DNA from: Psychromarinibacter sediminicola
GTDB taxonomy: Bacteria > Pseudomonadota > Alphaproteobacteria > Rhodobacterales > Rhodobacteraceae
Reading direction: 5' to 3'
NCBI RefSeq assembly: GCF_029168335.1
Contig: NZ_JARGYC010000003.1
Span: 1 to 64,000, forward strand
Length of the DNA: 64,000 nt
Part shown: positions 26,049 to 30,848 of the stretch, piece by piece
Layout: each line of letters opens with the position of its first letter
Numbering within the stretch: position 1 is the stretch's first letter
Made by a program: the position numbers and the translations under genes
The notes under the pieces: model-generated
Seen by the model: the letters and a program-made list of their open reading frames with translations, nothing else
What the model was told of the DNA's origin: nothing
Database searches by the model: none

Positions 26049-26085
26049 TTGACTGTTTTCGTCAGACACCTTAGAACAATTCTAA
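26049..26085 (+). promoter_or_regulatory. iscR promoter with overlapping dyad operator
   Basis: TTGACT (26049-26054) and TAGAAC (26072-26077) are separated by 17 bases and make a good sigma-70-type promoter. The perfect dyad TTAGAA-CAA-TTCTAA (26071-26085) covers the -10 element, so a bound regulator would block RNA polymerase. IscR autoregulation or another iron/Fe-S responsive control of the Rhodobacterales type is the natural reading. Confidence 0.7.
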
Positions 26086-26165
26086 TCCGGTGTTGCAGCA
26101 GCGGGCCGCACTGGGTCAGAGTGCAGTTAATGACCGCGCGGCAATAGGTCAATGGAGGGTGCGCC

Positions 26166-26645
26166 GTGAAACTGTCGACGAAGGGCCGGTATGCAATGGT
26201 CGCGCTGGCTGATCTGGCGCTGGAGGGGCCGGAGCGGCTGTCCTCGCTCGGGGACCTGTCGAAGCGGCAGCGGATCTCCTTGCCGTATCTGGAGCAGCTG
26301 TTCGTCAAGCTGCGCCGCGCCGGGCTGGTGGAGTCGGTGCGCGGGCCGGGCGGCGGCTATCGCCTGGCGCGGCCGGCCTCCGAGATCCGGGTGGCGGATG
26401 TGCTGGGCGCCGTGGACGAGACGGTGAGCGCGATGCATACCGGCGCCGGCGCCTCGGGCGGGCTGTCGGGGACCAAGGCGCAGTCGCTGACCAACCGCCT
26501 GTGGGAAGGCCTGTCGGCGCATGTCTACGTGTTCCTGCACCAGACGCGGCTGTCCGATGTGGTCGAGAACGACCTGGCGCCGTGCCCGGCGGTGCCGACG
26601 CTGTTCTCGGTCGTGGACGAGGCGTCGGAGGCGGAAGAGGCGTGA
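26166..26645 (+). CDS. iscR: Rrf2-family regulator IscR, cysteine-poor form
   Basis: This 159-residue winged-helix regulator heads the suf operon. The N-terminal MKLSTKGRYAMVALADLAL, recognition helix region ISLPYLEQLFVKLRRAGLVES and wing GPGGGYRLARP are standard. Classical IscR has three cysteines and a His at about 92-107 that hold a [2Fe-2S] cluster. Here that stretch (VSAMHTGAGASGGLSGTKAQS) has none, and the only cysteine is Cys140. Unusual cluster ligation has been reported for the Rhodobacter sphaeroides protein, so loss of cysteines need not mean loss of function. A dyad operator lies on its own promoter. Confidence 0.9.
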   Translation: MKLSTKGRYAMVALADLALEGPERLSSLGDLSKRQRISLPYLEQLFVKLRRAGLVESVRGPGGGYRLARPASEIRVADVLGAVDETVSAMHTGAGASGGLSGTKAQSLTNRLWEGLSAHVYVFLHQTRLSDVVENDLAPCPAVPTLFSVVDEASEAEEA

Positions 26646-26673
26646 ACGCGCCTGCGGCGCGTGCCTGCGGCGC

Positions 26674-26697
26674 GCGTATTTGGAACGAGAAGAAGCC
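26674..26697 (+). repeat. TATTT-N6-AGAAGAAG extragenic motif
   Basis: This motif sits in the short gap between iscR and the desulfurase gene, right after two direct copies of CCTGCGGCGCG (26651-26674). The same arrangement occurs in reverse orientation at 6617-6640. It may be an RNA processing or stability element. Confidence 0.4.
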
Positions 26698-26709
26698 TGG
26701 GAGCTTGAG

Positions 26710-27756
26710 TTGACCGACCGCGTGTATCTCGACTGGAACGCGACGGCGCCTTTGCGGCCCGAGGCGCGCGAGGCGGTCTGCGCGGCGCTGGACGTCGCGG
26801 GCAATCCGTCCTCGGTCCATGCCGAGGGGCGGGCGGCCAAGGCGATCGTCGAGCGGGCGCGCGGGCAGGTGGCGGCGGCCTTCGGGGCGGAAGGGGCGGA
26901 TATCGTGTTCACCTCCGGCGCGACCGAGGCGGCGGCGCTGGGGCTCGCGGGCCGCGGGCTGATCGGTGCGGATGTGGAGCATGACGCGGTGGCGGCGTGG
27001 ATCGACCCGGTGCTGCCGGTGGACGCATCGGGCCGCGTTCACGTGAAGGACGCCGCGCAAAGCGTTCTGCAGGCGGCGAATTCCGAGACCGGCGTCGTGC
27101 AGGACCTGCCCGAGGGTCTGGCGCTGTGCGACGCGACGCAGGCCTGGGGCAAGCTTCCCGTCGCGTTCAATTGGATGGGCTGCGAGATGGCGCTCGCCTC
27201 GGCGCACAAGCTGGGGGGGCCGAAGGGCGTGGGCGCGCTGATCGTCAGGCGCGGCACCGACCTGGAGGCCCGGCTGAAAGGCGGCGGCCAGGAGATGGGC
27301 CGGCGCGCCGGCACCGAGAACGTCGCCGGCATCGCCGGGTTCGGCGCCGCGGCGGAGGCGGCGGCGCGCGATCTGGCCGACGGCGTCTGGGCGCGGGTGG
27401 AAAAGTTTAGAAATATTCTAGAGAACGGGATTGAGGCTGCCGCGCCAGAGGTTATCTTTGCCGGAAAAGATGCATCGCGGCTGCCGAATACCTGCTGCTT
27501 CGCGATTCCGGGCTGGAAGGGCGAGACGCAGGTGATGCAGATGGACCTGTCCGGCTTCGCCATATCGGCGGGTTCGGCCTGTTCCAGCGGCAAGGTCCGG
27601 GCCAGCCGCGTGCTGCGCGCCATGGGATACGACGACACGGTGGCGTCCTCGGCGATCCGGGTCTCGCTGGGACCGGCCACGACGGAGAATGACATCGGGC
27701 GTTTCATCGACGCCTGGACCGCGCAATACCGGAAGTTCCGGGCCCGCGCGGCGTGA
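26710..27756 (+). CDS. Cysteine desulfurase, class I (IscS/NifS-like)
   Basis: This 348-residue PLP enzyme removes sulfur from cysteine for Fe-S assembly. [18 protein letters not shown] is the N-terminal hallmark, [11 protein letters not shown] carries the PLP lysine, and [17 protein letters not shown] holds the persulfide cysteine in a class I type loop. It is shorter than IscS (about 400). TTG was taken as start, with GGAG seven bases upstream. The operon also has a class II SufS, so both types coexist. A markedly AT-rich patch at about 27400-27480 contains a copy of the iscR-type dyad. Confidence 0.9.
27407..27421. promoter_or_regulatory. Internal dyad resembling the iscR operator
   Basis: TTAGAA-ATA-TTCTAG lies inside the desulfurase coding sequence and matches the dyad on the iscR promoter in both arms except for the last base. 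The surrounding 80 bases are unusually AT-rich and use codons rare in neighbouring genes. It may mark an internal regulatory site ahead of sufB; no clear -35 was seen. Confidence 0.4.
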
Positions 27757-29326: not shown

Positions 29327-29418
29327 CGCGCCCTGTGGCCGGATATCCCGCCCCTTGCGGCTGCGCGGTGGCGCCGGCGGGCGCCGGGCGGCCCTGACGC
29401 GCGGCGCGAGGCGATCCG

Positions 29419-29742
29419 ATGGTTGGGAATTCCGCGGAAGAAGGCGTGCTGCAGCAGCTCCGGCACCCGTCGCATTCGGACCCGGCGCGCATCGTGGCGC
29501 TGGCGGCGCTGGTGGCGGGCCTGCTGGCCGGGTGGGGTGCCTGGGCGTGGATCCCCGGGCTTGCCTTCGTTGGCGCGCTCGCATTCGGGCTGCTGGTCTG
29601 CATCGGGGTCGCCTGGACCCTGGGGCGCCGGGTCGCGGCGCAGGCAGAGGCCCGGCGGGGGGCCGAGTTGGAGGCACAGCGCCGGGCCGAGACGGCGGCG
29701 GCCGATCTGGCCCTGGCGCGCATGAAGGAGACCGGCAAATGA
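29419..29742 (+). CDS. Small membrane protein of the suf operon, unknown function
   Basis: I do not recognise a family. The 107-residue product has a polar start, two adjacent hydrophobic helices (about residues 25-42 and 45-65), and a charged alanine-rich tail (RRVAAQAEARRGAELEAQRRAETAAADLALARM) that should form a coiled coil in the cytoplasm. The stop overlaps the start of the cupin gene (ATGA), so it is translationally coupled within the suf transcript. Confidence 0.65.
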   Translation: MVGNSAEEGVLQQLRHPSHSDPARIVALAALVAGLLAGWGAWAWIPGLAFVGALAFGLLVCIGVAWTLGRRVAAQAEARRGAELEAQRRAETAAADLALARMKETGK

Positions 29743-30242
29743 CCATTCCTGTCGTCAACGTCCACGATGCCGAAGGCTTTCCCAGCGGTCCCGAGGGCAG
29801 CGACCGTTTCGGCGCGACGATCGCGCCCCTGACGGACGCGCTGGGGATGCGCGGACTGGGAGCGATGTACGTCACGGTCGAGCCGGGACGGCGCGCCTTT
29901 CCCTTCCACAATCACCTGGGCAACGACGAGATGTTCGTCGTGCTGGAGGGCGAGGGAACCTACCGCTTCGGCGAGCAGGAATACGAGGTGCGCGCGGGCG
30001 ATGTGTGCTCGGCCCCGCGGGGCGGGCCGGAAGCGGCGCACCAGCTGATAAACACGGGCGACAGGCCGCTGAAATATCTCGGGATCTCGACGCTGAACGA
30101 TCCCGACATCATGGAGTATCCCGACAGCGGCAAGTTCGCCGCGCTGGCCATCGCGCCGGGCGACAGCTTCATGGCGGCGCATCTGAAGCATGTCGGCCGC
30201 CGCGAGGACGCGCGCGAGTATTTCGAGGGCGAGGAGCTCTAG
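29739..30242 (+). CDS. Cupin domain protein of the suf operon
   Basis: This 167-residue protein contains one cupin barrel. Motif 1 is PFHNHLGNDEMFVVLEGEGTYRFG, with two His and a Glu for metal binding, and the second motif region is GDVCSAPRGGPEAAHQLINTG, with one His. A C-terminal extension of about 45 residues ends GRREDAREYFEGEEL. A metal-binding or small-molecule sensing role is likely, but the reaction is unknown. The start overlaps the upstream stop and the next gene begins three bases after its stop. Confidence 0.78.
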   Translation: MTIPVVNVHDAEGFPSGPEGSDRFGATIAPLTDALGMRGLGAMYVTVEPGRRAFPFHNHLGNDEMFVVLEGEGTYRFGEQEYEVRAGDVCSAPRGGPEAAHQLINTGDRPLKYLGISTLNDPDIMEYPDSGKFAALAIAPGDSFMAAHLKHVGRREDAREYFEGEEL

Positions 30243-30245
30243 CCG

Positions 30246-30848
30246 ATGAACGCGCCCGAGACCCCGCAGATCGAGCGCCCCGCGCTGACCCTGCCGCCCG
30301 CCGAGGCGGCCTGGCTGCAGGAGCGCTATGCCGCGGCGGGCGTGATCCTGGAATACGGCAGCGGCGGCTCGACGGTGATCGCGGCCGAGCTGGGCAAGAC
30401 GGTCTTCTCGGTGGAAAGCGACCGGGACTGGGCGGCGATGATGGCCGGCTATTTCGACGCGCATCCGCCCGAGGGCGCCGTGCACCTGCATCCGGTGAAT
30501 ATCGGGCCGACCGGCAAATGGGGCTCGCCGCGCAACGAGAACGGCTGGCGCAACTATCACAAGTACCCCGTAACCGTCTGGGACCGCAAGGATTTCCGCC
30601 AGCCGGACCTGGTGCTGATCGACGGGCGGTTCCGCGCGGCGTGCCTGGTGGCCACGATGATCCGGACCGCGCGGCCGGTGACCGTGCTGTTCGACGACTA
30701 TGTCGGGCGCAAGCCCTATCACGCGGTCGAACGCTGGATCGCGCCGGCCGAGACGCGCGGCCGCATGGCGCGGTTCGAGGTGGAGCCCTGGCAGATCCCG
30801 CCGCAGGACCTGGCGCAGGTGCTGATCCTGTTCAACCGGCAGCAATGA
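30246..30848 (+). CDS. SAM-methyltransferase-like protein of the suf operon
   Basis: This 200-residue protein begins, after a short polar segment, with ILEYGSGGSTVIAAELGKTVFSVESDRDWAAMM, a Rossmann motif I and acidic loop of methyltransferase type, followed by PDLVLIDGRFRAACLV and VLFDDYVGRKPYHAVERWI. It resembles proteins annotated as FkbM-like or class I SAM-dependent enzymes, without an assigned substrate. It sits three bases after the cupin gene. A gap of about 120 nt with a GC palindrome separates it from sufC. Confidence 0.65.
   Translation: MNAPETPQIERPALTLPPAEAAWLQERYAAAGVILEYGSGGSTVIAAELGKTVFSVESDRDWAAMMAGYFDAHPPEGAVHLHPVNIGPTGKWGSPRNENGWRNYHKYPVTVWDRKDFRQPDLVLIDGRFRAACLVATMIRTARPVTVLFDDYVGRKPYHAVERWIAPAETRGRMARFEVEPWQIPPQDLAQVLILFNRQQ

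Follow-up and report, generated by a model that had tools for sequence, protein, structure and literature searches.

An intragenic dyad in iscS as the probable Irr box of a second suf promoter, conserved across much of the Rhodobacteraceae

The window, the whole 64,000-nucleotide stretch of DNA that was analysed, has a mean GC content of 68.5% and carries an iscR-suf operon with two predicted promoter regions, P2 ahead of iscR and P3 inside iscS, named here after their counterparts in R. sphaeroides (Table 1). Two reading frames lie between sufB and sufC (29355-30848): one encodes a cupin protein (PF07883, 63.3 bits), and the other, of 200 aa, has no Pfam match and looks methyltransferase-like by eye. 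For the same interval of R. sphaeroides, PMC6956336 names one hypothetical gene.

Table 1 Features of the iscR-suf locus, in window coordinates.
Feature	Position	Strand	Basis
Predicted IscR box at P2, GAC-N7-GTC core 26051-26063, overlapping the -35 TTGACT	26049-26066	+	Sequence; matches the R. sphaeroides P2 box at -36 to -19
Irr-type dyad TTAGAACAATTCTAA at P2, over the -10; predicted start ~26085	26071-26085	+	Matches the predicted R. sphaeroides Irr box at -13 to +1
iscR, single-cysteine type	26166-26645	+	One Cys, in PCPAV; TIGR02010 138.1 bits, under the cut-off of 207.55
iscS, NifS/IscS-like cysteine desulfurase, predicted TTG start	26710-27756	+	TIGR03402 252.6 bits, under the cut-off of 530.75
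Intragenic Irr-type dyad TTAGAAATATTCTAG, iscS codons 233-238, centre ~-50 of P3	27407-27421	+	Sequence, conservation
Predicted P3 -35, TTGAGG	27431-27436	+	Column conservation; R. sphaeroides P3 TTG at ~-34
Decayed IscR-like motif GGTTATCTTTGCCGG (family consensus GACTATTTTTGTCGG)	27450-27464	+	4 mismatches
Predicted P3 -10, TATCTT (family consensus TATTTT)	27453-27458	+	Column conservation; R. sphaeroides P3 A at -10
sufB, first complete gene after P3	27776-29326	+	PF01458 SUFBD_core 273.6 bits

A pattern scan of the window for TTAGAA-N3-TTCTAA at up to two mismatches returned only the two dyads of Table 1, that at P2 with no mismatch and that in iscS with one. The mean chance expectation is 0.04, and none of 100 shuffles contained two matches. 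A sequence-only reading of the window had claimed two such dyads in the operon, and both are found at the positions it gave, in a number above chance for 64 kb. It had placed the first on the -10 of an iscR promoter, as is borne out by TTGACT at 26049-26054 and TAGAAC at 26072-26077 with a 17-base spacer between them, and the second in the desulfurase gene about 350 bases ahead of sufB, where it lies 355 bases before the ATG. The AT-rich patch described around the second dyad is also present: 12 of the 15 dyad bases are A or T, and at least 13 of 15 is reached at 6 of the 63986 15-base positions of the window, coding and noncoding counted together, four of which start at 27401-27406 and overlap the dyad. 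The symmetry of this dyad, reported as 14 of 15 positions, is in fact 11 of the 12 specified arm positions, which is also its agreement with the Irr-box type TTAGAA-N3-TTCTAA, a type string rather than a curated matrix; in both dyads the first and third of the three spacer bases are noncomplementary. Across the genome (5.03 Mb) there are 10 dyads at up to two mismatches, four of them with zero or one. A reversed-pattern control gives 39 matches against these 10, so that the 2-mismatch dyads taken as a group show no enrichment, and such sites say little genome-wide.

An internal transcription start in R. sphaeroides iscS was reported by Remes 2015, where the promoter was termed iscR-independent (PMC4618611). 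Nie 2019 named the intragenic iscS promoter P3 and described it as the strongest sense promoter in R. sphaeroides (PMC6956336). In that paper the sequence TTAGAAATATTCTAGA, ~50 nt upstream of the P3 start, is the putative Irr site and GACTATTTCTGTCGG, around the start, is an IscR-like motif, with gel shifts for Irr and IscR, respectively; P3 activity is 2.5 to 2.8-fold higher without IscR, and in an irr mutant iron has a ~2-fold effect on P3. At P2, an IscR box is placed at -36 to -19 and an Irr box is predicted at -13 to +1, although binding of Irr to P2 could not be demonstrated; IscR binds both the P2 and the P3 fragments. The P3 gel-shift fragment is 190 bp long. Because by position it should span both motifs, and no mutated-box control is seen in the available part of PMC6956336, the assignment of motif to protein at P3 is unproved.

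The window element at 27407-27464 lies within iscS and upstream of sufB, just as R. sphaeroides P3 lies inside iscS and serves the suf genes. Positions 27407-27422 are identical to the putative Irr site over all 16 bases, and if transcription in the window starts at ~27464, as we infer, the two promoters also share a dyad ~50 nt before the start, a TTG near -34 and an A at -10. They differ at the IscR-like start-site motif, which in the window is altered in both arms and, with four mismatches to the family consensus, does not qualify as such a motif. The P2 region would likewise fit the R. sphaeroides map, with an IscR box followed by an Irr box that ends at the predicted start (Table 1). The dyad is found at P2 with up to two mismatches in 92 of the 104 loci examined, and the GAC of the adjacent IscR box is invariant across these 92 regions. 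The core of the Iron-Rhodo-box reported for IscR (PMC4618611) takes the form GAC-N7-GTC or GAC-N7-CTC in the aligned P2 regions; this box belongs to the same operon and adjoins the dyad at P2, but has a different sequence, and its core is missing from the dyad itself and found in the neighbouring element. The Irr boxes, or ICE, of mbfA and ccpA, both Irr targets in R. sphaeroides (Peuser 2012, PMC3413700), lie upstream of the start as here (~40 nt for ccpA), the likeness being the common label Irr box in the available parts of the papers. Unlike these, the box at P3 is intragenic, and its last arm base is mostly G, opening a Glu or Asp codon. Rodionov 2006 predicted just two Irr boxes in R. 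sphaeroides according to PMC3413700, whereas the available part of PMC6956336 credits the same work with a further Irr box upstream of iscR.

On this comparison, the internal dyad is likely to serve as operator for P3, a second suf promoter inside iscS, and is itself most likely an Irr box, that is, an iron control element. Irr is encoded in this genome (G000:C237, NF045678, 205.6 bits, cut-off 150), and in a profile search 226 of the 248 family genomes exceeded this cut-off. The P3 box is present in 45 of 63 evaluable Irr-positive genomes and in 5 of 17 Irr-negative ones (Fisher p 0.004, phylogeny ignored, as for all co-occurrence p-values), which leaves 18 Irr-positive genomes without the box and five Irr-negative genomes with it; the P2 box is present in 55/61 and 4/14, respectively. 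Thirty genomes of the Irr-positive set were picked by hand among the 227 that have a match, roughly every second one in the range G062-G128; 20 of the 21 genomes without an Irr match were looked at, 17 being evaluable. At a completeness of at least 97%, a cut set after the data were seen, seven of eight Irr-negative genomes have no P3 box and the one box has two mismatches; at a completeness of at least 90%, 3 of 14 evaluable Irr-negative genomes have it. All eight near-complete genomes also have a poor IscR-like motif at P3, with at least four mismatches each. On the tree, Irr changes ~12 times and the box ~14 times. Among the 14 outgroup genomes, six have Irr above the cut-off, yet none of these six has the box.

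Four of the eight other dyads in the genome (L003, L004, L006, L007) were followed to genes and stand 21-179 bases ahead of genes for iron or peroxide functions: a Nfu scaffold, a ferritin-like protein that by reading is Dps-type, a LysR regulator/peroxidase pair that by reading is OxyR/KatG, and a rubrerythrin-VIT protein that by reading is MbfA-type and whose gene faces away from a TetR gene. No iron gene was recognised at the other four (L005, L008, L009, L010), all of which have two mismatches. The dyad between the divergent LysR regulator and peroxidase genes (L006, positions 1501-1515, G000:C66) may link iron and peroxide control; the link is a weak one because this too is a 2-mismatch site, a class not enriched over the control.

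The sequence-only reading had assigned the dyads to IscR. That the dyad is an IscR site through which IscR controls both promoters is considered unlikely, even though iscR heads the operon and the R. sphaeroides P2 and P3 fragments are both bound by IscR. The R. sphaeroides copy of these 16 bases is the putative Irr site and the IscR motif there is a different one, and the reported IscR box at P2 is the adjacent -36 to -19 element, with the dyad as the predicted Irr box. The co-occurrence with irr agrees: six of the eight near-complete Irr-negative genomes have IscR, and five of these six are without the P3 dyad. Moreover, in two genomes (G020, G074) iscR is preceded by a TTGAC-N7-CTC element but by no dyad. 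The candidate that both dyads are IscR-bound Iron-Rhodo-boxes was dropped, given the site assignments in the available part of PMC6956336 and the irr co-occurrence counts. In all likelihood both dyads are Irr-type boxes that were mislabelled as IscR sites; this correction of the regulator from IscR to Irr has good but not conclusive support. The P3 promoter as such may still be controlled by IscR, because IscR binds the R. sphaeroides P3 fragment.

IscR itself varies in the family: in 4 of the 17 genomes examined it has two to four cysteines instead of one (L216, L221, L219 and L223, from G018, G189, G233 and G021, respectively). Three of those in G021 are clustered, in a manner reminiscent of the classical Fe-S ligands.

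Conservation of the intragenic box was assessed over 156 family loci, which include three pairs that each represent one genome twice; three further loci were not evaluable. The box is present at up to two mismatches in 116 loci, and the 40 losses or absences comprise two loci with three mismatches, one with four and 37 with five to eight. It was found in none of 14 loci from other families (14 of 24 such genomes examined). The 80 named loci are the best matches to the window iscS and are skewed to close relatives; in two less biased sets of Irr-positive genomes the box occurs in 26 of 33 (29 genera) and 19 of 30. The intragenic box is common in the family and not universal. Far from being lost in close relatives, the outcome that had been named as counting against a function, the internal dyad is retained by the window and all four other genus members examined. 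Two loci, L033 (G020) and L198 (G074), have a P3 dyad with no arm mismatches but have no dyad at P2; their P3 dyads have A as the last arm base, which opens codon 238.

Across 106 distinct family genes, four duplicate loci having been dropped, codon surprisal peaks and third-position GC reaches its minimum for the gene in the six codons that begin at codon 232. Codon 234 is AGA in 91 of the 106 genes and codon 237 is CTA in 90 of 105, against shares of 0.07 and 0.06 predicted from the genes' own usage. The mismatch counts are bimodal, with zero to two in 90 genes, five to nine in 16 and three or four in none. Within one mismatch, the box is observed in 87 of 106 genes against 0.07 expected from synonymous sampling, a contrast that is not a probability, as the sampling takes the genes to be independent and related genes share history. 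These data support constraint on the internal site at the DNA level, beyond that on the protein. A slowing of translation by the rare codons AGA and CTA, with the dyad as a by-product, is very improbable. AGA is missing elsewhere in the gene in 67 of 90 box-bearing genes and CTA in 71 of 90, as such slowing would suggest, but the constraint runs over codon boundaries, extending to the third base of codon 233 regardless of whether L, F or I is encoded, and the -10-like and IscR-like motifs are conserved downstream. The spacer is a weaker point against slowing, being only partly free (ATA or ACA in 78/90, 12 triplets overall). Protein constraint or a chance AT-rich patch can be given almost no credence, despite R234 in 156/156 and L237 in 151/156 family loci, in view of the excess over synonymous sampling and of box-less relatives, which mostly use other codons for the same R.

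The proposal that the internal site is an operator or promoter element therefore stands in part: it is favoured by the DNA-level constraint and by the match to a mapped R. sphaeroides promoter, and the part that fails is IscR as the protein on the dyad.

To hold the box, codon 235 must begin with A and codon 236 must be NTT, and the IscS protein differs accordingly. Asp235 is encoded by 2/116 genes with the box, by 32/40 without it and by 11/14 in the outgroup, Asn235 by 102/116 genes with the box, and Ile or Val at 236 by 116/116 box-bearing against 3/40 box-less genes, a contrast at both residues that follows largely from the definition of the box. The outgroup state suggests that Asp235 is ancestral. 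A purely synonymous loss of the box was considered and rejected: R234 is kept and recoded, and residues 235 and 236 also change.

The IscR-like start-site motif has zero to two mismatches in 81 of 106 loci and four to six across the five genus members (the window and four others), all of which keep the dyad despite the decay. Conversely, 10 of 16 dyad-less genes retain the IscR-like motif at up to two mismatches, and 12 of 90 dyad-bearing genes have it with at least four. The dyad and the IscR-like motif are lost separately. The decay of the one and retention of the other in the genus predict that P3 may there be mainly under Irr control.

In the Irr-box reading preferred here, Irr would bind ~50 bp upstream of the P3 start when iron is scarce, and bound Irr would restrain suf transcription from P3, opposing the release of the upstream iscR promoter. 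Codons 233-238 of iscS would then carry a regulatory and a protein message in one stretch. The P3 start, its activity, the binding of Irr and IscR to the fragment and the iron response are those reported for R. sphaeroides, and they are transferred to this organism by analogy. A more tentative suggestion, for which the case is nearly balanced and falls slightly short, is that an operator arising inside iscS rewrote the protein, codon 235 changing from Asp to an A-starting codon (mostly Asn) and codon 236 to NTT (Ile/Val), and that these changes were kept across much of the family; the Irr and IscR modules would then have been lost independently, so that in lineages such as the genus of the window suf control may have passed from IscR and Irr together to Irr.

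The internal dyad is best regarded as a real, strongly conserved intragenic operator, which the sequence comparison indicates to be orthologous to the published R. sphaeroides promoter element. Three points are new here, with no earlier report found in the available parts of the literature searched: the dyad is retained across the family, a residue change goes with it, and the IscR-like motif has decayed in a lineage-specific manner. A published intragenic promoter element is thereby seen to be widespread in the family and no quirk of R. sphaeroides. Retention of the box overrides codon preference and apparently accompanies a fixed residue change, and the cases in which the Irr box, the IscR-like motif or irr itself has been lost naturally provide a test set for the wiring of iron and Fe-S cluster control.
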